Of a stretch of 22,919 nt of DNA, positions 3,601 through 22,492 are shown in pieces. The translations under genes were made by a program, and so were the position numbers. The stretch lies in the IMG/VR virus record IMGVR_UViG_3300034110_000948, positions 1 through 22,919 of that record; one strand, written 5' to 3'. The notes under the pieces were generated by a model. That model was not told the origin of the DNA. It saw only the letters and a list, made by a program, of their open reading frames with translations, and searched no databases. Each line of letters begins with the position of its first letter. The stretch's first letter is position 1. This DNA comes from a virus.

Positions 3601-6154
3601 CATCAAGACCCGCAATTGTGTCGATCTTATCAATCTTGGTTTGCAAGTTTTGGTGTAGCTGAGTTTCAGTAATTTTGCCCGACAAAATATCAAGCACAGC
3701 CGACGCATCTGCAGACGTAGTTGCGCTTGCTAAAGCAGACCACGGCCCCACATTCCCGATCCGGTCAATCAAACGTCCACGGAAATAACGAGTTAAGTTT
3801 GGCTGCATGCCCTGAATAACGTGAGTATCTGTTGGGTATGCAAATAAACCGAGTTGTGACTTGTTGGCACCATTCGCAGTGCTTGCAATCTCAATTTCCG
3901 TATAAGCCGTATCTAGCGCACCAGTCGCAGGGAAATTCCAATTTAAACGGTAGCCAAATAAGATACCTGCTGCTGTAATGTTAGCTAAGGCAGGCGGCAA
4001 ACCTTGCTTGCCTGACAAAGTTGTGAGCATTGAGTAAGTTGGCAGAGATGCAACGTCAAACGCTGAAATCGCAGTAACACGCGCTTCATAGTTGCCCGCA
4101 TAAATACCCTGTACTTCAACTGAATTGTTGCCTGTAATTGGCAATTTAATCCAACTACCATCATCTTTACGCCATTCAACTTGATACTTTGTAGCGCCTT
4201 GTGCTTGATCCCAAGTAATCAACATGGTTTCAACAGACAAGCCTTGCTGAACCATGTTTTCAGATGAAATCAAAACATTAGTGACAGGTGCTTGAGTGGT
4301 CGGATTGATGATTGAAATCGGACGCTCATCAATGAAAGCACCAAAGTCGATTGCATCATATTTTGCTGATTCATACTGTAGCGCAGTGATTGAAAACTGA
4401 TGCTTGTCGTCTTGAGTGATACTCATGACGCGAAACTTCATTGTTTTTAAATCTTGCGCATCAACGACCCACACATTTTCAGCAGCAACAGAATCAAACG
4501 CCACTGTGACTGTGACTTTGCGCCCAATTTTTGATGACACGATTCGAGCTTGCGCTTTACCATTTTCACCATTTACAACAAGCCGATCACCCGCACGACA
4601 CACCACATCATCACGATCCAGAGTAATGACTTTGCGATCAGCGCTGACAGCAGAAATACGACCACCATTGGCACGGCCTGCAAAAAGCTCGTCTGCGATT
4701 TCAATCACTTTACCTGGTTGTGGAATATAACCATCAAGACCGACTTTAAAAGATACAGTGCGAGTTTCCAGTTGCTCAGACTTTAACGCCCAAAGACCTG
4801 CACGTTGCGCTTGACCCTCAGAAGTACAACCCCACGCGTCAATCTCAGCAATACGCACACCGAGCTTTGCGATAGCTGCTTCATCACGCACATAAACATA
4901 CTCAGTTTTATAGTGGTTTGCAGGGTTATCCCATGCAACCTTAGCAACTGTGTGACGGTCACGCGCACGTGTGCCTGTGTACTCAAATAGACCATCGATA
5001 ACATTGGCACGGGTATAAGTGAAGTAAGTATCTTGCGGAATATCAGCATCACAGACAATTGAATTGCCGTCCCAATAAGAAATTGCACGGAATACGCCTG
5101 CCAATTTGCTTAAAATCGTATAAGCATCTTCGGTAGATTGTAGATATACGTTACAAGTAAAACGTGGCTCTTTCCCACCTTTACCATCATTCACCATTTG
5201 GTCGCAGTATTGGGCAAGGCGATACAAAGACCACTTGTCCAACATTGCAGACGTTAAGCGGTCACCCAAAGCATAGCGCTTTGATGTGCAGATATCGTAA
5301 TAAATCCACGCGGGGTTATTGGTATAAGCGCGTTTGAATGTGCCATCCCACATGCCTGCATAGGTACGTGCAACTGGATCGTAATTTGACGGGACTTGAA
5401 GCTTAATACCTTTTAGATCAACTGCGACTTTTGCCACATTGGAAAAGGTTTCTGCGTCATATTGCAGACCAAGTAAAGCTGTATTCGGATAACTGAGTTT
5501 TAGATCAATCACTTCAGTCAATGCATCAACATACATCTTGTCACTGATATATTCTGATGTGGAGTTGGGTGTCAATCGACGCACACGAACTGTCCAGCCG
5601 GTATCGGCTTTAGGCAAGTCAATCCGATGTGAGCGCTCATAGTTTGCAGAGGTTTTGTCAGCGATTTGAGTATTTAAAACTTCAGTCCATGTGCCGCCAT
5701 CAGTTTGCAGATCAATTGCATACTGAATGACGATACCTTTAACATCGCCATTTTCAGCATTCTGCTCGCGTAGCGGCCCCCACTTGAAGCGCAAGCGCAC
5801 AGCATCCAGATCGGTATTAGTGACTGAGCGCACCCAAGGTGTATCAGACTTTAATTCGACATTAATCGCGCTCTCAGATGAAATATCCGGAAAGCCTTCG
5901 ATATGAGTCTGATCATTGGTGCCATGACGAAAGTCAGCCTGAACATCTTCAAAGTTCCAACCACCCGCCGGATTCTGTAGCGGCGTTTCCTCAAGAAATA
6001 CCGATTGCAAGCCATTGGCCAGTCCCTCAACCTCACCTTCAGACAAGCCATACAGAATCTTAATATAGGTTTTTGACTGAGCTGAGTCAGGTGCAATCAC
6101 TGCTTTTCTTGCCTTGCCTTCACCTGCCTTTGCGCCTTTAATTACTGCGTTCAT
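659..6154 (-). CDS. J: Tail tip / host specificity protein J
   Basis: An 1831-residue homologue of lambda gpJ, the central tail-tip protein that contacts the host receptor. The first ~620 residues carry the conserved J region, beginning with the KTYIKILYGLSEGEVEGLANG type start. Two fibronectin-III-like segments follow (about 630-720 and 730-830; Trp, Tyr and RIGNVGPWS motifs). A long central stretch (about 850-1500) is predicted coiled coil, including an extremely Ala-rich segment near 1200-1300 (DNA around 2240-2560). A Gly/Trp mini-domain (KRWNGSAWITVTDKA) interrupts the coil. Four 10-residue I-x-D-L-x-V-x-T repeats precede the C-terminal beta-rich domain (about 1660-1831), the most likely receptor-binding part. 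It is longer than lambda gpJ (1132 residues), mainly because of the coil. The start follows AGGGAAAAGT, just downstream of a hairpin and T tract. Confidence 0.95.
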   Translation of the reverse strand: MNAVIKGAKAGEGKARKAVIAPDSAQSKTYIKILYGLSEGEVEGLANGLQSVFLEETPLQNPAGGWNFEDVQADFRHGTNDQTHIEGFPDISSESAINVELKSDTPWVRSVTNTDLDAVRLRFKWGPLREQNAENGDVKGIVIQYAIDLQTDGGTWTEVLNTQIADKTSANYERSHRIDLPKADTGWTVRVRRLTPNSTSEYISDKMYVDALTEVIDLKLSYPNTALLGLQYDAETFSNVAKVAVDLKGIKLQVPSNYDPVARTYAGMWDGTFKRAYTNNPAWIYYDICTSKRYALGDRLTSAMLDKWSLYRLAQYCDQMVNDGKGGKEPRFTCNVYLQSTEDAYTILSKLAGVFRAISYWDGNSIVCDADIPQDTYFTYTRANVIDGLFEYTGTRARDRHTVAKVAWDNPANHYKTEYVYVRDEAAIAKLGVRIAEIDAWGCTSEGQAQRAGLWALKSEQLETRTVSFKVGLDGYIPQPGKVIEIADELFAGRANGGRISAVSADRKVITLDRDDVVCRAGDRLVVNGENGKAQARIVSSKIGRKVTVTVAFDSVAAENVWVVDAQDLKTMKFRVMSITQDDKHQFSITALQYESAKYDAIDFGAFIDERPISIINPTTQAPVTNVLISSENMVQQGLSVETMLITWDQAQGATKYQVEWRKDDGSWIKLPITGNNSVEVQGIYAGNYEARVTAISAFDVASLPTYSMLTTLSGKQGLPPALANITAAGILFGYRLNWNFPATGALDTAYTEIEIASTANGANKSQLGLFAYPTDTHVIQGMQPNLTRYFRGRLIDRIGNVGPWSALASATTSADASAVLDILSGKITETQLHQNLQTKIDKIDTIAGLDGDIGNLIENISAVQTQTDQISDELALERQQRVTAIQDLDDGLTQEVLDRQNGETAIYGYVNTYKLSNDNALASFQDSLDIALTDSSLAIERTQALDGRVQVAEDEAGNALFNSASALQKANIAIDDTKALSSLVTEVKAVAEQSADTADTAAAGAASALEKATASATKSDANANKIEEITAELGTKASTGALNQTNANIAEVDGKVNANTTRLNGVYAQVNPDMIGSTEGLIGSTAGHVGTWTLQSAVIEGDMALSQRIDTTVAEIDNAKALVQTEAYARAQENEALSSRINTLKVDVDGNKAAIVTLETARATDNESFAGRFDTLQASTKTAKDTADQAILDAQNKSAAAELAAKAYAAAQAEAERLAAIAAASDDATAKADAAEAAAVAAAALDAKNKADDAKQAAIDAAALDATAKANAAEAAAKAVANAAQQAASAAATAAGNKGEVIFGSTNPAADKRLPQNLWIDTTGGLNTPKRWNGSAWITVTDKAATDAAAAAKKAQDTATEALDKANTATENIATIKLEQGVFTDRLDAIGGEIKTIQGYVDGQQTGIEVVSAVGDLNKLKNEIAKARLDEDTTKLQGQVAALTSAVNGYDARIAEITSKRTKEAAKPDKNQELIDLYTSQIAELNAAKVDANAQKAAIASQVAKITADKAKLNSLVLTESKIKAQHTIKLDSGGVISSYGLAVEESGGTNYSNFAIRANSFALAGPASAGSTPYYPFIFRNTPFTDPVTGTVFPVSAYLKSAMMDYQSVKTSHIEDLAVKTAKIDDLAVTTAKIGDLQVDTLKIKDNAVTVPIASYNDTSNTWPSSMTARTPGTYAGGTATLDDTSNAFGDLISITLNRSGGKCRIEGNVEFKNLQAVVWSSNQTALANSNQTLYVGLILLKNGSVIRRMRVPANTVLLGDTIAQFNGFVNMPIHLDDAGTGNTTYTLRIGIGTTRNSPAGVYMSRPATPAEYWPSVVSASLAVMEIKK
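1218..1337 (-). repeat. Four 30-bp tandem repeats inside J
   Basis: Four consecutive 30-bp units (starting 1218, 1248, 1278 and 1308) encode diverged 10-residue repeats of form I-x-D-L-x-V-x-T-x-K. The two middle units are most alike. Short regular beta repeats like this usually build a stalk that links a coiled coil to a receptor-binding head; that structural reading is inferred. Confidence 0.75.
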
Positions 6155-8787: not shown

Positions 8788-10041
8788 TTACAGATTTACA
8801 AAAGCTGGACGAGACCCGATGCTCGCGTTCGCGTTCGAACGAGCGCTGCTCAAGTTGAGATAGAACACGCCAGCTGTCGAACCGTTGTACCAGTGGCCGC
8901 CACGGACGGGAAGGCGCTCATTAGTCATTGCTTTGGCGAAGTAATCACCGTTATATGAAGCGGTATTTTCAGTATGCGGATATAAGCACAATGCTTTCAG
9001 TCGAGCTAAAGCTGCCGCAGTCACAGGCTTGGTTGTTGACAGGTTTTGGATTGCTCCAAAGCTACCACCGTTAATTGTGTAGTCTGCTGTGCCACCATCA
9101 GCATATTTGATTGTGCCTACCGTGGTTCCGCTGCCGTTCGGTGTGACCAGGTTGCCAGTTTCACCATCAATTGCCTTCCATTCGGTCGAAGCTGCGCCAA
9201 GATTGATCGCCAGCTTTGACGCGTTATTGTCTGCAATAACCTGAATCTCACCGTTAAAAATACGCATTCCGGAATTCCATTCCCATACGTTACCGGATAA
9301 ATCAGCAATGCCGTTTTCTTTACCGTTATGTCGCCATTGCACAGGTCCAGAGCCAGTTAGTGTACGTGCTGAACCCGCAGTATTTCCTGGAGCTAAACCA
9401 TCTTGACGGCGACCCACAAGTAAGGGGTTCTCCGAACTGCGGCCATAATAAGTATTCCCTAGCGGCTGGGTGTTATCCTTGTAGCATTGCAAGGCCACGG
9501 CGCTCCATTCAGCATTAGTGATTAAGTGGTGGCCGTTACCACACGCTCGCGCTGCTGTTAAAAAGTTGTCATAGTTAGTGCTATAGCTTGGCTCTACATT
9601 TGGCAGGCTGAGCAACTCACCATTAACGATTCTTCCCTGATACGTGCCGATAAAGATTTCAGGCTTTTCCACACCGTCCACAATAAATGCTGGGTGCGTA
9701 CCACTTAATGAAGCATCAATCGTACTCATATCGTACTTTTGAATGATGTTCATGTAGGTTGCTTGACCTTTTGCCGTATAAAGTACGGTTTGCAAGCCAC
9801 CAGATGCCAGCTCTACCGATTGACGCAATGAGTCTTTGATGAGAATAGTTAGTTCACTTTTATCTGAAATCACACCGAGTTTTGTACGAGTCTTTTCAAC
9901 AGTCAGCACACCGTCAGCTTCGGCCCCAAGATGCGTATAAAGCTCATCATCGTTTGCTTGTAGTTTTGCAGAACCTGAACGGAATGTATCACCACCAATA
10001 CCAGTTGGTGCTGTGCCTTGGTTAATTTTTTGCTTAGCCAT
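8788..10041 (-). CDS. Tail protein with FGE/C-type-lectin fold, receptor-binding candidate
   Basis: A 417-residue protein. The N-terminus (INQGTAPTGIGGDTFRSGSA ... NDDELYTHLG) is of the kind that anchors phage fibres to the tail. From about residue 130 it has the formylglycine-generating-enzyme/sulphatase-modifying (C-type lectin) fold: HLITNAEWSAVALQC, GIADLSGNVWEW and a terminal RGGHWYNGSTAGVFYLNL ... GSRPAF. The same fold and ending are used by diversity-generating-retroelement target proteins such as Mtd. No enzymatic Cys pair is evident, so receptor binding is more likely than catalysis. The start has AGGAATAATT upstream. The last ~110 bases are GC-rich compared with the rest of the gene. 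Confidence 0.82.
   Translation of the reverse strand: MAKQKINQGTAPTGIGGDTFRSGSAKLQANDDELYTHLGAEADGVLTVEKTRTKLGVISDKSELTILIKDSLRQSVELASGGLQTVLYTAKGQATYMNIIQKYDMSTIDASLSGTHPAFIVDGVEKPEIFIGTYQGRIVNGELLSLPNVEPSYSTNYDNFLTAARACGNGHHLITNAEWSAVALQCYKDNTQPLGNTYYGRSSENPLLVGRRQDGLAPGNTAGSARTLTGSGPVQWRHNGKENGIADLSGNVWEWNSGMRIFNGEIQVIADNNASKLAINLGAASTEWKAIDGETGNLVTPNGSGTTVGTIKYADGGTADYTINGGSFGAIQNLSTTKPVTAAALARLKALCLYPHTENTASYNGDYFAKAMTNERLPVRGGHWYNGSTAGVFYLNLSSARSNANASIGSRPAFVNL
8797..8908 (-). other. Variable-repeat-like 3' end of the lectin-fold gene
   Basis: The segment encodes RGGHWYNGSTAGVFYLNL through SARSNANASIGSRPAF. The fixed frame of residues interrupted by Asn, Tyr, Ser, Thr and Ala is what adenine-directed mutagenesis of an Asn-codon-rich template gives. 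I count 62 G/C in 8811-8910, against 44 in 8911-9010. No template repeat or reverse transcriptase was found in the window, so diversification is not shown. Confidence 0.4.
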
Positions 10042-16523: not shown

Positions 16524-17252
16524 TTAACTTCTTAAGGGTAAAACTAACTCTAAAGACTGGTTGTGGAGCTCTTCCAGTTCATTTGTCCATAATTTTTCGT
16601 CAATGAAACGCTTTTTCAATATCCCGTAAACTTCCGCATTATGGATAATAGTTGCAACAAAAGCCGCATATGGTCGATCTGATTGAGCTGCTTTCAAGAC
16701 AGCTTTAAATCTATTTCTCTTCCATCCATCAAGTTTCTCTAGATCTGAAAATTCCCTGTTCATCTGTACTAGAGAATTTTTTGCAGCCCCTGCAACTCTA
16801 CACCGCTTAACAAATAAATCTTCTTCATTAAGATCCAGAAGAGTTTCAGTATTTTCACCAATTTCAGTTATGCCAAAAATACTAAAGTGATCAAAACAGA
16901 ATTCTTTGCGTGGATCAGTTTCATAGGGATTTATGATCGGCCTTATTGAAATATCATCATCGTTTTTAGTTCCATTACATCTTTTACATGAAGGTAAAAG
17001 ATTATCCCATTCTACTACCAAATCTGGATACAGAGATTTTGGATGAAAGTGCTCAACTTCCATATAGGTACTAGGATCTGTTAAATCTGTTTCACAGTAA
17101 GCACATTTATGAGATGAGCTTTCCGAAAGAGGGTCCTTGATCTGTTTTTTATTCCAGACAGATTTTTCAGTAGCTACATACTCTTTAGTTAGTTGCTCTA
17201 CCTTATCTTCTGTTAAATATTCGGGCTTTTCGCCTCTTTGTAGCTTGATCAT
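16524..17252 (-). CDS. ptuB: Septu-type HNH endonuclease PtuB
   Basis: A 242-residue HNH nuclease. The core has CAYC (50-53), then MEVEHFHPKS (E67, H68, H70), WDNLLPSCKRCNGTKND (N84, C89, C92). This is the zinc-HNH layout of the TIGR02646-type nucleases paired with AAA ATPases in Septu and in retron Ec78. The C-terminal half is helical. The start is 3 bases after the PtuA stop, with GGAGAG inside the end of ptuA, so the two are coupled. Septu acts against phage, with PtuB as nuclease effector in complex with PtuA. No reverse transcriptase is present, so it is not a retron form. All visible catalytic positions are intact. Confidence 0.82.
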   Translation of the reverse strand: MIKLQRGEKPEYLTEDKVEQLTKEYVATEKSVWNKKQIKDPLSESSSHKCAYCETDLTDPSTYMEVEHFHPKSLYPDLVVEWDNLLPSCKRCNGTKNDDDISIRPIINPYETDPRKEFCFDHFSIFGITEIGENTETLLDLNEEDLFVKRCRVAGAAKNSLVQMNREFSDLEKLDGWKRNRFKAVLKAAQSDRPYAAFVATIIHNAEVYGILKKRFIDEKLWTNELEELHNQSLELVLPLRS

Positions 17253-17255
17253 GGA

Positions 17256-18416
17256 TTACTCTCCAAGACTATCAAGCTGCATTTGATAAATTGCTTTTAA
17301 TTCGCTGTGTGGATGAAGCATTCTCTTAAGCTTGTCAAAGGCTCCCCTTGCTCTTAGTTGATCTTGCTGTTTGAAAGCGTCCATGAACTCATTACGGATA
17401 GCTTCATATTCATTTGTGCGGAGATCTGTCATCCCCATCACATCTTTTAAAACCTCTTCAATGGTCCATCCCTGATAACCGTACTCAGAGGTAGGCAACT
17501 CACGACGAATAACTTCGCCATCTTTCCGCTCTAACGCGATTACTTCGCCCTGACGAGCTGTTTGAACTACATGAGGACTATGAGTTGTAATGAAGAATTG
17601 GGCTTTCGGGAATACTTCTTTTAATGCACCACAGACCCGCCCTTGCCATTCAGGATGAAGGTGTAACTCAATTTCATCAATAAGAATAATGCCTTCATAG
17701 TCTTCAGCTGCAATTTTATCCTTGAATCGAAGATCAAGTTCCTTAATGATTCCAAGTAAGATAAACAATGTAGATTTGAAGCCCGATGAAAGAAGCTCAA
17801 AATGTATCTCACCTCCATTGCTAGTTGGAGATTTTACATAGACTTCGAAGTCCGTTGCCACACTAGAAAAGCTATATTCAGGATTGAGAATACTAAAACA
17901 TTTAGTTGCTAAATCAGCATTTTGTTTCTGTGTTTTAGTCAAATTATCTTTCGCAAATCCTTTTCTAATTACTAACCAGTTTTTTAAATCCTCATTAGTT
18001 ACACCAGCAGTATTGTTTCTTGCAGCTTCTAAGGCATCTTTATCAACACTAATATTGCGTTCCTTTTTATATTTAAATACCCTATTGACTTGCAAATATA
18101 ATAATCTATCTACGATCCCATCACTCAGCTGATCAATGTAGCGTTCAATTGGTCCATATTGCTCAATCGCACGATTAATACGTTCAAAGTTCTGAAAATT
18201 TGTCTCAATAGCAATATGACCATTGTCAGCTCCCTTTCTCAGCGAAATAGAATTCCTATTTATTGCTGAAAACATATAGGCTATTGAATCTAGAATATTT
18301 GTCTTACCCACCCCATTTTCACCACAAATAATATTCATCTGTGGATTAATATCTTCTAATTTTAGATAGGGAATTCCACCTACATCTTTTAATTCCAATG
18401 ATGTAACTTTCATTGT
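17256..18416 (-). CDS. ptuA: Septu-type ATPase PtuA
   Basis: A 386-residue ABC-type ATPase of the AAA_21/SMC-like class. It has Walker A GENGVGKT (31-38), an ABC signature LLSSGFKS (about 207-214), Walker B IILIDEIEL (about 242-250) with HLHP following, and the switch TTHSP (about 276-280). It forms an operon with the HNH nuclease, the defining Septu pair. The start at 18416 (MKVTSLELKDVGG) is chosen because family proteins begin so and a candidate promoter lies just upstream. A longer in-frame start at 18494 would add 26 residues of low-complexity type. Both starts lack a strong ribosome site. It is separated from the antirepressor operon by a terminator. Confidence 0.83.
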   Translation of the reverse strand, partial: TMKVTSLELKDVGGIPYLKLEDINPQMNIICGENGVGKTNILDSIAYMFSAINRNSISLRKGADNGHIAIETNFQNFERINRAIEQYGPIERYIDQLSDGIVDRLLYLQVNRVFKYKKERNISVDKDALEAARNNTAGVTNEDLKNWLVIRKGFAKDNLTKTQKQNADLATKCFSILNPEYSFSSVATDFEVYVKSPTSNGGEIHFELLSSGFKSTLFILLGIIKELDLRFKDKIAAEDYEGIILIDEIELHLHPEWQGRVCGALKEVFPKAQFFITTHSPHVVQTARQGEVIALERKDGEVIRRELPTSEYGYQGWTIEEVLKDVMGMTDLRTNEYEAIRNEFMDAFKQQDQLRARGAFDKLKRMLHPHSELKAIYQMQLDSLGE

Positions 18417-18444
18417 TTCTAAGCCATTGTTGTTAGATGGATTC

Positions 18445-18472
18445 ATCATACATTCAATAGAAATTTTTCCAA
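18445..18472 (-). promoter_or_regulatory. Candidate promoter for the Septu genes
   Basis: Minus-strand TTGGAA (18467-18472), 16-base spacer, TATGAT (18445-18450). Transcription from here would start just before the 18416 ATG and exclude the upstream start. With a terminator immediately upstream, this would give the defence pair independent expression in the lysogen. Sequence match only. Confidence 0.45.
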
Positions 18473-18507
18473 GATTACTTTTTTGAGGCTTCATGAATTT
18501 TTTCCAA

Positions 18508-18551: not shown

Positions 18552-18878
18552 TTACTTAATCACTAAGACTATCGCCACAATGACTAAAATAGCTGTTAGT
18601 AGATAGCAATTAGTTCGCCACATTAGAATGGTTTTAGTACCTCGCTTTATTAAAGCATCGTACTCCCGCATTTTATCCATTGCGCGAGCCATCGCTGCAT
18701 CACCTCTTTGCAGGAGAGTGATCATTTCCAGTTTCTCCTGCTCCAAGATTCGTCTTTCCTTGGCATGCAGGAGAATCATTTCATGATCTGCCAGAATTCG
18801 ATATTTAATATCCTCCAGCAACTCATCACGGCTCATGCTTAGAATATCTTCGCTTAACTCAAAATCTAGATCATTCAT
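18552..18878 (-). CDS. Coiled-coil protein with C-terminal membrane anchor (108 aa)
   Basis: A 108-residue protein. The first ~85 residues are acidic-to-mixed helix with coiled-coil character (LLHAKERRILEQEKLEMI). Residues about 88-107 are one strongly hydrophobic segment (TAILVIVAIVLVIK), giving a tail-anchored layout. The ATG overlaps the antirepressor stop as ATGA, so it is the last gene of the coupled operon. Possible roles are superinfection exclusion or a membrane partner. No family is recognised. Confidence 0.7.
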   Translation of the reverse strand: MNDLDFELSEDILSMSRDELLEDIKYRILADHEMILLHAKERRILEQEKLEMITLLQRGDAAMARAMDKMREYDALIKRGTKTILMWRTNCYLLTAILVIVAIVLVIK

Positions 18879-19657
18879 GCTGTGCCGCCTTGATCTTTAG
18901 CTAACTTTGCCAGACCTTTAGGCGTAATGCGTACCTGCTCAGTAATTTTGGTTGTACCATCACCTCGCGTCACCTCAGTTATCTTATGTTCCAGATAACC
19001 AGCTTGTACTTTATCCTGATAACCCAACCAATGAGAGTTACCTGCTCGCTTGTAAATCCATTTACCGGATGAAAGCTTGGCAATTAGATCTTTCGGGCGC
19101 ATTTGCAGGGCTTTAGCTGCATCAGTTAGACATAGACTTCCATCGGCTTTGGCAATTCGATCATAGGCTTCTACTGAAGGCTTCATTTCCTGAACTTCTT
19201 CCTCTAAACCCACAATCCTTTCGGAGTAACCTAGAAGCAAATCTCTCAAAACGCGCGGATCAGCTAAAGACTTCATTGGGTCAAAGTTCTGGATAAGCTC
19301 TTTGGTTTTGAAATAACCTTTGATTAATTGCTTCTGAACTTTCCAAGCTAGGTCATCAGTAAATGACTTAACTAGCATCAAGTAACCTGATTCAGTTAAA
19401 AGCTTTACATCACCATGACTTTTATCCGAGATAGAGCATATTTTGTGCGTCCGAATTTCGGACGAGCTAACCTCGAAATAATCTTCACCATCAACAAAAT
19501 GCTCCTTATTATCGTTGAAACGTTTTCGAGCTGTGCCTTCTGGACGACCATGAACTTCATCAACCATTGCGAAAGTTACAACACGCTGACCTTGGTACTC
19601 AACAATATCTAAAACTTTGTCAGCAACAGTCACGCTGTTATTTAATTTTGCATTCAT
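18875..19657 (-). CDS. ant: Phage antirepressor (ORF6N + KilAC)
   Basis: A 260-residue antirepressor. The N-terminal ~75 residues form an ORF6N-type domain (EYQGQRVVTFAMVDEVHGRP, then FNDNKEHFVDGEDYFEV). A helical linker follows, then the C-terminal KilAC/ANT domain from about 155: PSVEAYDRIAKADGSLCLTD, KALQMRPKDLIAKLSSGKWI, and ITPKGLAKLAKDQGG. Proteins of this type free phage from repression by binding the main repressor or a relative. It is the third gene of an ATGA-coupled operon headed by a small RHH protein. That order mirrors arc-ant of P22. Confidence 0.9.
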   Translation of the reverse strand: MNAKLNNSVTVADKVLDIVEYQGQRVVTFAMVDEVHGRPEGTARKRFNDNKEHFVDGEDYFEVSSSEIRTHKICSISDKSHGDVKLLTESGYLMLVKSFTDDLAWKVQKQLIKGYFKTKELIQNFDPMKSLADPRVLRDLLLGYSERIVGLEEEVQEMKPSVEAYDRIAKADGSLCLTDAAKALQMRPKDLIAKLSSGKWIYKRAGNSHWLGYQDKVQAGYLEHKITEVTRGDGTTKITEQVRITPKGLAKLAKDQGGTA

Positions 19658-20192: not shown

Positions 20193-20257
20193 CCCCAATC
20201 TGGGGTGTTAAATCATAGTACCCATTCTGGGGCTATTGGTCAAGCCCCAAAATGGGG
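20193..20257. promoter_or_regulatory. Three operator palindromes CCCCA-N3-TGGGG
   Basis: Perfect or near-perfect palindromes at 20193-20205 (CCCCAATCTGGGG), 20220-20232 (one mismatch, ACCCATTCTGGGG) and 20245-20257 (CCCCAAAATGGGG). Their centres are 27 and 25 bases apart. The second lies in the spacer of the minus promoter and the third in the spacer of the plus promoter; the first lies just downstream of the minus start. They are the likely sites of one or both RHH proteins encoded on either side. Confidence 0.85.
20215..20243 (-). promoter_or_regulatory. Promoter of the antirepressor operon
   Basis: Minus-strand TTGACC (20238-20243), 17-base spacer, TACTAT (20215-20220), close to the sigma-70 consensus. 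The spacer contains the middle operator, so bound RHH protein would block RNA polymerase. Confidence 0.75.
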
Positions 20258-20288: not shown

Positions 20289-20759
20289 ATGAGTGAAGAT
20301 CAAAGCAATATCGTTACCCTTAAAGTTCGTGTAACACCTGAATTTCGTGAAAAAATTGTTGAAACAGCTAAAACAAATAATCGCTCCATGAATCAAGAAA
20401 TTGTAGCTCGATTAGAGGAATCTTTTGATAACAAGGATATAGGGCAAGAATTTTTTCAAAAAAACCTACATCTTTTCCTTTCTGCTTACTGTGCTGGTCT
20501 TGAAAGTAATTACGATGATGCGATATCTCAATTGGAAGAATCTCTTTCACAAACAAAAAATCCCGAGATGATTCAATTTCTTGAGCATCGACTTCAAGTA
20601 AATAAAATATTAAAAACAGAAATGCACAGACTGATGAAAAATAATTCGGAAAAGTTCAGTGCTGAATTATCTAAAGAGGTTTCTCAGAAACACCTTACCC
20701 ATCCACATCTAGCCAAAGATAAGCCACTCACTCCAATCAAGGACGAAGATATCGGGTAA
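20289..20759 (+). CDS. Arc/Mnt-type ribbon-helix-helix repressor (156 aa)
   Basis: The only plus-strand gene. The first ~50 residues are a classical Arc-family domain: VTLKVRVTPEFREKIVETAK then NNRSMNQEIVARLEESF. The remaining ~105 residues are helical, probably for oligomerisation as in Mnt, ending in a basic to acidic tail. It is longer than Mnt (83 residues). It faces the small RHH and antirepressor operon across shared operators, as mnt faces arc-ant in P22, so maintenance of lysogeny by repressing ant is the likely role. Its transcript would continue into the structured RNA up to the terminator at 21097-21119. Confidence 0.85.
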   Translation: MSEDQSNIVTLKVRVTPEFREKIVETAKTNNRSMNQEIVARLEESFDNKDIGQEFFQKNLHLFLSAYCAGLESNYDDAISQLEESLSQTKNPEMIQFLEHRLQVNKILKTEMHRLMKNNSEKFSAELSKEVSQKHLTHPHLAKDKPLTPIKDEDIG

Positions 20760-20770
20760 TACCTGAAGAG

Positions 20771-20970
20771 GTTTCCGAGACCCTCAATCTGAGCGTCTCG
20801 AAAGCTGCACCGATAACATCGGTTCAGTTTAAGACTGACTGACTTTCAGGTAGTCAGTCCAAAATTCGGGCTTTTGAGCTATCCCGAAGTGGATATCTCA
20901 AAAGCATCACCGATAAGATCGGGTATGTTTGTAACTGACCCTCTCTGAGATGGTTAGTCCAAATGCTTAA
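20771..20970 (+). repeat. Two 100-bp tandem repeats
   Basis: The blocks 20771-20870 and 20871-20970 align with exact 100-base offset at CACCGATAA-ATCGG, at AACTGAC-type stems and at TTAGTCCAAA/GTCAGTCCAAA. Identity is partial, highest in the short-hairpin core. Confidence 0.7.
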
Positions 20971-21072
20971 AAATATCTTATCGCTTCGTAAATTCCCGAA
21001 ACGATAAAACCTTTTCTCCTTAAATTAAGGAAAAGCTAATGAGGATTTTTCTTGCTATTGGGAATTTTCCCA
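20771..21072 (+). ncRNA. Structured RNA with tandem three-hairpin units
   Basis: This 350-base stretch (20760-21110) has no good reading frame and instead holds a chain of hairpins. Unit A: long hairpin 20771-20805, short hairpin 20809-20823 (ACCGAT/ATCGGT), hairpin 20833-20859 (GACTGACT/AGTCAGTC). Unit B, 100 bases on: 20870-20905 (14 pairs), 20910-20922, 20934-20958. Then a third, more different set: 20978-21007, 21011-21035 and 21059-21072. Stems keep pairing while the sequence changes (T840-A852 becomes C940-G952; G837-C855 becomes a G-U). It lies between a repressor gene and a bidirectional terminator. Strand is inferred from the upstream gene. Confidence 0.6.
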
Positions 21073-21090
21073 AACCCAAACACTGACCTC

Positions 21091-21119
21091 AAAAAAGCAC
21101 CCTAAGGTGCTTTTCTTTT
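21091..21119. terminator. Bidirectional terminator
   Basis: Stem GCACC / GGTGC with loop CTAA (21097-21110), flanked by six A on the left and TTTTCTTTT on the right. It ends the plus-strand RHH/RNA transcript and the minus-strand small membrane gene. Confidence 0.85.
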
Positions 21120-21134
21120 AATAAAGGCTGAATT

Positions 21135-21233
21135 CTAGAAAGCCCAATTACCACCTTGCCCCATCTCATAAACGATGAGAATTAAGATTAGCACCATTAG
21201 AATGACAACAACGATTTCGGCTTTGGTCAGCAT
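21135..21233 (-). CDS. Single-span membrane peptide (32 aa)
   Basis: Encodes MLTKAEIVVVILMVLILILI then VYEMGQGGNWAF: an N-terminal Lys/Glu segment, one strongly hydrophobic span and a short Gly/Trp tail. The start at 21233 has GGAG nine bases upstream. An in-frame ATG at 21254 would add MKSGAPK with no ribosome site. The gene lies between the nucleotidyltransferase terminator and the bidirectional terminator, in an AT-rich leader, so it has its own short unit. A toxin-like, holin-like or modulator peptide are all possible; none can be shown. Confidence 0.6.
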   Translation of the reverse strand: MLTKAEIVVVILMVLILILIVYEMGQGGNWAF

Positions 21234-21340
21234 TTTCGGAGCTCCACTTTTCATTATTCATATGATAAGCAAAGCAAACAATTAATAACAATAATATTAC
21301 AAAAAAATTATTGGATGTTACAAAGTTAAAGACAATAAAG

Positions 21341-21359
21341 AAAAACCTCCCGGAGGAGG
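21341..21359 (-). terminator. Intrinsic terminator after the nucleotidyltransferase gene
   Basis: Minus-strand stem CCTCC / GGAGG with loop TCCG, followed by TTTTTCTTTATTG. Confidence 0.78.
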
Positions 21360-21365
21360 CTTGGT

Positions 21366-22091
21366 TTACTTTATATAAAATTCTTTTTTCTGCCTAATAT
21401 AGGCAGCAAATTTGGTATTGACCTCAAAAACAATCTGATTGGCGCGCATTGACTCTATTTTCAACTCATCACATGCTATTGTTAGGTATTTCTGAGGATC
21501 ATCTTGGATTTTACTACAAGCAATCTCAAGCCCCCTAAATACCTCTTTGAAACTATAATGATTGTCTGCAGCGTGCCAAGTTTCATCTGATATTTCACCC
21601 CAATTTTCAAACATTGTTAGCAGATCAAATATATCTTTATAAGGCCTGTCATTATATCGATCTGCATTTGCTAGAATTTTTGTTAAGTAACATGATTGAT
21701 GATCGATAGAGGGAACTTCAAATTGATTTATCTCGTCTTTTTTGATCTCATAATTAGCAAAAGATACAAATTCCAACTTAATAGGCACGCCTTCCATTTG
21801 AATAAAGCAGCGCGTGCCATCTCGATCAAGTCGAATTTCTCGAAGATACTCAAATTCACTTTTTACAATATTACCCAAGCTATTGGGAGTTACTACTGCC
21901 CGAACTGCTCGGTAAGACTCTTTATCCGGGCAAAGAAAATCGATGTCTATAGATTCACGGTATTCGTCTAATTCAAGAGCAATCCTAGTACCTCCACCAA
22001 ATAATATTCGATGTTCATCTAAGTATTCAGAATTAAAATTCCTTAAGGCTTTTTGAATTAATTTATGATGAGGACGGGTAAATTCAAGCAT
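21366..22091 (-). CDS. AbiEii/AbiGii-family nucleotidyltransferase
   Basis: A 241-residue nucleotidyltransferase-fold protein. The signature GGGTRIALELDEYRESIDID (residues 32-51) has the Gly-Gly and the two Asp (49, 51) needed for metal and nucleotide binding. A later K-I-L-A...DRPYKDIFDLL segment also fits the family. AbiEii proteins act as toxins in abortive-infection and toxin-antitoxin systems, transferring nucleotides to RNA targets such as tRNA in known members. Here the usual larger AbiEi antitoxin is absent; a 68-residue gene lies 5 bases upstream instead. It ends in a terminator. Confidence 0.85.
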   Translation of the reverse strand: MLEFTRPHHKLIQKALRNFNSEYLDEHRILFGGGTRIALELDEYRESIDIDFLCPDKESYRAVRAVVTPNSLGNIVKSEFEYLREIRLDRDGTRCFIQMEGVPIKLEFVSFANYEIKKDEINQFEVPSIDHQSCYLTKILANADRYNDRPYKDIFDLLTMFENWGEISDETWHAADNHYSFKEVFRGLEIACSKIQDDPQKYLTIACDELKIESMRANQIVFEVNTKFAAYIRQKKEFYIK

Positions 22092-22096
22092 GAAAA

Positions 22097-22303
22097 TTAT
22101 GCTGCCAAAAATAATCCATGACCAATGATCTGAGTCAATCTATCGATCAGATTTCTTTCTTTGCCAGTTAGTTGTTGAGCATCAATATATTTCCATCTTT
22201 TTTCATAAAGATGAAAAGCTCTTTCAGCAGGAATTTGCTCAGCTGCAGTATCCCATAAAATATAATCTAAAGCAGGATACTCTTTTCTTGCAATTAGATT
22301 CAT
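22097..22303 (-). CDS. Small partner of the AbiEii nucleotidyltransferase (68 aa)
   Basis: A 68-residue protein: NLIARKEYPALDYILWDTAA, then FHLYEKRWKYIDAQQLTGKE, ending GHGLFLAA. The LWD...LYEKRWKYID pattern resembles short proteins often found before AbiEii-type nucleotidyltransferases, so an antitoxin or partner role is inferred. It has AGGTATAGCAT upstream of the ATG and a 5-base gap to the enzyme gene. The 189 bases upstream (22304-22492) are AT-rich and non-coding, with no clear promoter on the minus strand. Confidence 0.68.
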   Translation of the reverse strand: MNLIARKEYPALDYILWDTAAEQIPAERAFHLYEKRWKYIDAQQLTGKERNLIDRLTQIIGHGLFLAA

Positions 22304-22492
22304 ATGCTATACCTATATGATATGACTGGGTGCCTAAATATTAACACCTAGATTAATAATATATTGACATAGTATTTGATAGTGACATCACCGTCAATAA
22401 CGAATTATCATCGTTTCGTCAGCTCTTGTGACGTTTTGTTCTCTTGCATCGGCGTTAAGCATTATAAGTGGTGAGATTGAGCAAAAACCAAC

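Follow-up and report, generated by a model that had tools for sequence, protein, structure and literature searches.

The window, that is, the whole stretch of DNA analysed here, is a 22.9 kb virus record which, judged by its proteins and relatives, belongs to an Acinetobacter siphophage or prophage. Its minus strand carries tail genes, a Septu pair, an ORF6N-KilAC antirepressor gene and a short ribbon-helix-helix (RHH) gene. On the plus strand an Arc-like RHH gene is followed by an array of hairpins, after which an AbiE pair is found on the minus strand. The Arc-like gene and the antirepressor gene lie near each other, as expected for an immI-like region in which Arc/Mnt regulators accompany an antirepressor. 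The main features around the array are:

18875..19657, minus strand: the phage's own antirepressor gene, ORF6N-KilAC (Pfam ORF6N 5.7e-18, ANT 1.3e-32)
19448-19464, minus strand: coding hairpin of this antirepressor, CGTCCGAAATTCGGACG, within the ORF6N-KilAC gene
20193-20205, 20221-20232 and 20245-20257, no strand assigned: three CCCC-N5-GGGG-type palindromes seen in the sequence between the divergent RHH genes, probably operators
20289..20759, plus strand: gene for an Arc-like RHH regulator of 156 aa (Pfam Arc PF03869, E 1.5e-9), upstream of the array
21093..21114, both strands: bidirectional intrinsic terminator at the end of the array, its sequence kept in L003, L026 and L032

Two non-coding units of 100 nt, each with three hairpins, make up positions 20771-20970. 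A sequence-only reading had described this region as a gene-free chain of hairpins next to a lysogeny switch, with two units at an exact 100-base offset, paired stem changes between the units, a bidirectional terminator at its end and no counterpart among the named RNA families, and this description was borne out. The direct repeat has exact 100-base spacing (20796-20863 versus 20896-20963) and is 74% identical, and stem bases change in pairs from one unit to the other (T20840-A20852 to C20940-G20952, and G20837-C20855 to G-U). The region 20760-21120 folds at -126 kcal/mol compared to -77 ± 5.9 kcal/mol for shuffled sequences (z -8.3), and its minus strand folds too (z -9.6 versus shuffles). 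No ORF of at least 60 aa crosses the array; the stop-to-stop frames are at most 56 aa long and overlap across all six frames, and a continuous reading frame is absent. An Rfam search of the array at gathering and relaxed thresholds gave no family at threshold, and the sub-threshold matches were terminator-like noise. On the plus strand, no terminator was found between the Arc-like stop codon and position 21093 except for one weak match without a T tract, and the Arc-like gene and the array probably share one transcript.

The array locus is surrounded by defence genes. A Septu anti-phage defence system (PtuA/PtuB, 16524-18494, minus strand; PADLOC E 6e-143 and 6e-88) is present, and the cargo site that separates the array from the tail genes is occupied by a compact AbiE module (21366-22303, minus strand), consisting of an AbiEii nucleotidyltransferase and a short AbiEi-like partner of 68 aa. 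The suggestion in the sequence-only reading that the RNA might be a sensor for these systems found no support. Nor was there support for a type III toxin-antitoxin RNA serving the neighbouring AbiE genes, AbiEii and AbiEi being a protein pair. The stretch from the Arc-like gene to the tail assembly genes (20760-22490) is a variable cargo locus, also in L003, L026 and L032, and is bounded by a conserved terminator, AAAAGCACCCTAAGGTGCTTTT. A small membrane peptide ORF, MKSGAPKMLTKAEIVVVILMVLILILIVYEMGQGGNWAF (21140-21255, minus strand), lies in a region that is also present in L003, where it is found downstream of the terminator. Elsewhere in the window, a 417-aa protein with an FGE-sulfatase-like domain match (8788-10041, minus strand; end GGHWYNGSTAGVFYLNL..ARSNANASIGSRPAFV) recalls the diversified C-type-lectin fibre proteins; no reverse transcriptase was noticed in the window.

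Hairpins in antirepressor coding sequences and in the array

Hairpins were identified at one codon site within the coding sequence of about 70 ORF6N and 14 Bro-N antirepressor genes. In ORF6N genes the hairpin is located between the codons for GKHFFK and LWTE[RK]G. It is present in nearly every ORF6N gene examined, including those of Lactococcus phage TP901-1, P1-like phages, Gifsy-1, Stx phages and Acinetobacter phages, a range from Lactococcus to Enterobacteria and Acinetobacter. Bro-N genes carry their hairpin at the homologous place. Some antirepressor genes have two or three successive hairpins in frame, and such tandem in-frame modules are found in L050, L130, L181, L182 and L222. The shape of the coding hairpins is conserved and their sequence is hypervariable. 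Among 16 coding hairpins of equal length, 88.5% of the cells pair, and the covariation score is 0.667 compared to 0.200 ± 0.035 when shuffled; with slid partners it does not exceed 0.131. Synonymous-codon shuffling of the hairpin segments gave a mean z of -2.4 for ORF6N (n = 69) and -3.5 for Bro-N (n = 14), compared to -0.7 and -0.5, respectively, for neighbouring parts of the same genes. The covariation and the synonymous-shuffle results together indicate that the coding hairpins are elements at the RNA (or DNA) level, superimposed on the code, apparently an undescribed feature. N-terminal domains of the antirepressors are visibly swapped among close relatives. Rha-type regulators gave no signal as a further hairpin family (n = 2). 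A Bro-N-like hairpin core, CCTCAATTTGAGG, was seen inside ORFs of Roi or other phage regulators (L063 3901-3927, L114 19563-19589 and L175 8847-8873), which suggests that further gene families may carry such hairpins.

The hairpins of the array were compared with a library of 83 antirepressor hairpin regions. They are, with their closest antirepressor genes where these were found:

20776..20800, plus strand: hairpin A1, Bro-N antirepressor type, CGAGACCCTCAATCTGAGCGTCTCG; 26/27 identical to the coding hairpin of Bro-N gene L228
20804..20828, plus strand: hairpin B1, ORF6N type, GCTGCACCGATAACATCGGTTCAGT; 25/28 to the coding hairpin of ORF6N gene L043
20833..20859, plus strand: hairpin C1, ORF6N type, GACTGACTGACTTTCAGGTAGTCAGTC; sequence identity to ORF6N coding hairpins
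20870..20905, plus strand: hairpin A2, GCTTTTGAGCTATCCCGAAGTGGATATCTCAAAAGC; inverted repeat in the slot equivalent to A1
20902..20930, plus strand: hairpin B2, ORF6N type, core CACCGATAAGATCGG; 30/32 to the second coding hairpin of ORF6N gene L130
20934..20958, plus strand: hairpin C2, ORF6N type, C1 class; closest to ORF6N gene L129
20978..21007, plus strand: hairpin D, third set; resembles a terminator on the minus strand, where ATTTTT comes after it
21012..21035, plus strand: hairpin E, third set; no antirepressor match, from folding and comparison with the hairpin library
21058..21073, plus strand: hairpin F, third set; no antirepressor match, on the same basis

In nearly all viral contigs that matched the A1 pattern, the match lay in a Bro-N gene: among the 18 matched loci, the exceptions were an L003-type array and one unrelated gene. 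The Bro-N copies sit at the equivalent gene site, and their Bro-N identity was confirmed by Pfam for one A1-pattern locus, as it was for L210. The chance expectation for this pattern is less than one locus, a rough figure based on an assumed collection size. C1 (20834-20863) is identical in 30/30 positions to a segment inside the ORF6N antirepressor genes of L025, L026, L040 and L041, and the B1 match in L043 lies at this same ORF6N gene site; the version of B1 in L003 is identical to the L043 coding hairpin in 24/25 positions.

A1, B1, C1, B2 and C2 each scored higher than 300/300 dinucleotide shuffles and 500/500 stem-keeping pair-permuted shuffles, so that for five hairpins the sequence match to antirepressor mRNAs is beyond chance (0/300 and 0/500); C2, for example, scored 20 compared to a shuffle maximum of 15. 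The control for A1 is partly circular, since the library includes loci that were fetched with the A1 and C1 patterns. C1 and B1 first came to light in loci retrieved through protein similarity to antirepressors; B2 and C2 did so in loci retrieved with an ORF6N protein alignment. For A2 no matching antirepressor gene was found, nothing in the library being better than shuffles. The sequence-only reading had seen a third, more divergent set of hairpins after the two units. These hairpins do form (20973-21090), but a relationship to units 1 and 2 could not be demonstrated and their matches to antirepressor hairpins were no better than those of many shuffles. The match of D was not beyond chance (7/300 dinucleotide and 13/500 pair-permuted shuffles), and E and F gave only weak scores against the library.

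The five best matches are all in sense orientation and end at the hairpin boundary, with no flanking antirepressor homology around the hairpins, and no other stretch in the rest of the window attains their match score. Their sources comprise two antirepressor families, several alleles and differing reading frames. Both units follow a common slot plan (A, then B and C, both ORF6N), with alleles that differ between the units. Sequence comparison thus identifies the array as tandem non-coding sense copies of hypervariable hairpins from Bro-N and ORF6N coding sequences of other phages. The hairpin of the phage's own antirepressor matched the array no better than shuffles (23/200) and is missing from the array in both the window and L003. 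A search of bacterial genomes with the B core pattern gave chance matches only, and neither the array nor, at relaxed thresholds, parts of it found a relevant match in DNA collections of phages and plasmids.

Relatives of the array and other non-coding copies

One homologue of the array was found. The Arc-like protein has one identical relative, encoded in L003, and at the same place L003 contains a single A1-B1-C1 unit that runs directly into a terminator (4579-4596), followed by a different cargo gene and then the final terminator as in the window. Unit 1 of the window and the L003 unit differ by three bases, all within B1. L004, a more distant relative, is without any unit.

Other non-coding copies of this type were rare in the approximately 2.7 Mb of DNA examined. 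L210 is a related phage whose Bro-N antirepressor is of a different allele. Just 3' of the stop codon of this antirepressor gene lies the reverse complement of C1, with a terminator-like hairpin after it; the copy is perfectly antisense to the C1 alleles in the ORF6N genes of other phages. In TCUAN1 the place 3' of the antirepressor stop codon is occupied by a sense-oriented stretch of 20 bases from the hairpin of this phage's own antirepressor, and in L124 an RHH-like ORF (no Pfam family) is followed by a hairpin and a terminator. The order of regulatory gene, hairpin and terminator-like hairpin is also found in L003, L124 and TCUAN1. Antirepressor 3' UTRs in general consist mostly of plain terminators, hairpins of this sort being found only in TCUAN1 and L210, and a second genomic copy of the own antirepressor hairpin is absent in most phages, with TCUAN1 as the exception. 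The E. coli prophage L206 has two hairpin copies in non-coding stretches, and only 5/5426 genomes share the region that surrounds one of these copies. As in L003, L210 and TCUAN1, the location is 3' of phage regulatory genes. Intergenic stretches near antiterminator Q in L206 (2253-3031) contain several hairpins, two of them ORF6N-type, and are possibly a second kind of array.

Possible modes of action

The anatomy of the array is well supported, and from it we infer a mechanism, whether antisense, mimic or recombination cassette. The reading that we put forward, with a probability of about 0.4, is that of a phage-borne RNA immunity array, in which stored hairpins would be expressed with the phage's own repressor gene and each would block one class of foreign antirepressor; the targets would be the general hypervariable hairpin in Bro-N and ORF6N coding sequences. 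Transcribed by the prophage, the array would form a structured 3' end on the mRNA of the Arc-like repressor, stopping at 21093-21114. Array hairpins would then act in trans on the antirepressor mRNAs of superinfecting or co-resident phages with a matching allele, and contact between array hairpin and mRNA hairpin could block translation or expose the mRNA to RNase III. Trans action on the mRNAs of competing phages is a tentative proposal, to which we give somewhat less than even odds. As an outcome, the lysogen would be shielded against foreign antirepressors and its own antirepressor would be spared. One hairpin would represent one immunity specificity, and units and slots would add specificities, comparable to the incompatibility groups of plasmid antisense RNAs. 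The missing own hairpin and the different alleles per unit fit such a specificity set against foreign antirepressors. The sequence-only reading had named a sar-like, decoy or antisense RNA for phage immunity; a role in antirepressor or immunity control is plausible, but the origin of the hairpins from antirepressor genes had been missed.

The plus strand would be the simplest transcript, via the Arc-like gene. On the minus strand no promoter was seen close to the array, and terminators lie upstream on that strand. By dimerising with the target hairpin the sense strand gains 2.5-4.4 kcal/mol, compared to 17-32 kcal/mol that the minus strand would gain, and this small gain is a difficulty for the trans-action reading, in which the pairing may be antisense-like. 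The matches of five hairpins to antirepressor genes, the covariation and synonymous-shuffle signals of the parent coding hairpins, the antisense copy of C1 in L210, the recurring order of gene, hairpin and terminator, and the AbiE and Septu surroundings count in favour of a trans-acting array. A2 and the third set, which are without a matched target, and the presence of L003 as the sole array homologue count against it, and the non-coding copy in TCUAN1, which matches its own antirepressor, counts against foreign targets.

There are two serious rivals to trans action. A plus-strand RNA might imitate the antirepressor mRNA hairpins and titrate their usual binder, a small RNA or a protein. Such a mimic or sponge is unlikely, as binders of these hairpins are not known, L210 has the reverse complement, and the array lacks the match to the phage's own antirepressor that one would expect of a sponge. 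It agrees, however, with the sense orientation of all five matches, with readthrough from the Arc-like gene as the simplest path to transcription, with the end of the single L003 unit at a plus-strand terminator and with the weak sense pairing energy. Alternatively, the hairpins could be short DNA palindromes, mobile or recombining, that are exchanged between antirepressor genes and sites outside genes; the array would then be a site where they passively landed, or a store of cassettes for the shuffling of antirepressor alleles. The tandem in-frame modules inside antirepressor genes, the occurrence of both orientations at intergenic sites and the swapped N-terminal domains point in this direction. 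The homology of about 25-32 nt is short for recombination, however, and movers should be near-identical whereas the modules vary per allele with compensatory changes. That the plan of three slots recurs at a fixed period of 100 nt and that its slots are filled by differing alleles moreover suggests selection, and we regard DNA modules as a rather unlikely explanation.

Decayed remains of antirepressor genes would account for the descent of the array sequence from antirepressor coding regions, and a true decayed ORF6N gene is present elsewhere (L205). In the array, however, flanking antirepressor sequence is gone and folding is kept, and since two gene families and several alleles occur without flanks, out of frame and with a fixed 100-nt period, the array is not gene debris; we consider this origin very improbable. 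An antirepressor pseudogene or protein-coding gene was rejected, the reading frames being broken between A1, B1 and C1 with no flanking homology. An ordinary structured 3' UTR that merely stabilises the repressor mRNA would be in line with the position between stop codon and terminator and with the strong folding, but it leaves the sequence identity to antirepressor hairpins unexplained and is hardly to be expected.

Two connected features are apparently undescribed, namely a covarying, hypervariable RNA hairpin within the coding sequence of antirepressors from two widespread families, and non-coding arrays in which hairpins of this kind from other phages are gathered. The array points to a way, not described before, in which a resident virus could recognise its competitors and keep them under control. 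If it acts on the matching mRNAs, it would represent RNA-based multi-target immunity between temperate phages with a specificity that is readable from sequence, and the resistance of a lysogen to given antirepressor-carrying phages would become predictable and testable. Whatever the mechanism, the coding hairpins need explaining and offer a handle on antirepressor diversification.

Comparison with known regulatory RNAs and palindromes

In the parts of the open-access literature covered, work on RNA control of antirepressors deals with C4, group 1 sRNAs and IsrK, and neither the ORF6N/Bro-N coding hairpins nor the arrays are described. Like the array, the C4 antisense RNA of phages P1 and P7 (RF01695) is a phage RNA with hairpins that is tied to an antirepressor and to superinfection immunity. 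The C4-like group 1 sRNAs of Acinetobacter baumannii (PMC5320573) belong beside C4 in this comparison. These RNAs are processed from longer transcripts, control an antirepressor and have a variable target-recognition part, and the array may be likened to them in these respects. C4 pairs through its loops with the leader upstream of the antirepressor, whereas in the array whole hairpins match a site within the coding sequence. The C4 covariance model gave no match in the window at gathering score, in the array at E up to 10, or in L003, L026, L043 and L130; as a positive control, C4 was recognised at 78 bits in the E. coli contig L183, which has a coding hairpin as well. The array lies 3' of the Arc-like gene and not upstream of an icd/ant operon, and complementarity to a leader was not found.

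The sar RNA of P22 (immI: arc, mnt, ant) resembles the array in that it belongs to a bipartite immunity region, with an antirepressor and regulators of the Arc/Mnt type as neighbours. The sar RNA is an opposite-strand antisense to the leader of its own ant gene. Unlike sar, the array lies elsewhere and matches several foreign alleles, and it is not antisense to the own ant mRNA, the own hairpin being no better than shuffles. C4 and sar demonstrate that phage antirepressors can be controlled by RNA, but the array corresponds to neither: it lacks a match to C4, a target in a leader and a match to the antirepressor of its own phage. Functional likeness (an antirepressor immunity RNA) is to be kept apart from identity (an array of captured coding hairpins).

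Plasmid antisense pairs such as CopA/CopT and RNAI/RNAII also combine a conserved hairpin shape with a hypervariable sequence that sets specificity groups. These pairs arise from one locus, whereas the array holds sense copies, in trans, from several sources. REP/RPE-type elements are short palindromes that occur inside and between genes. They form a uniform repeat family, in contrast to the coding hairpins, which keep to a specific site in two homologous antirepressor domains and whose sequences are hypervariable and covary. In L183 (708-896) C4 and isrK are located just upstream of a hairpin-bearing ORF6N antirepressor gene, and in L181 (7849-7933) sRNA-Xcc1 has the same position, indicating that both RNA layers coexist.
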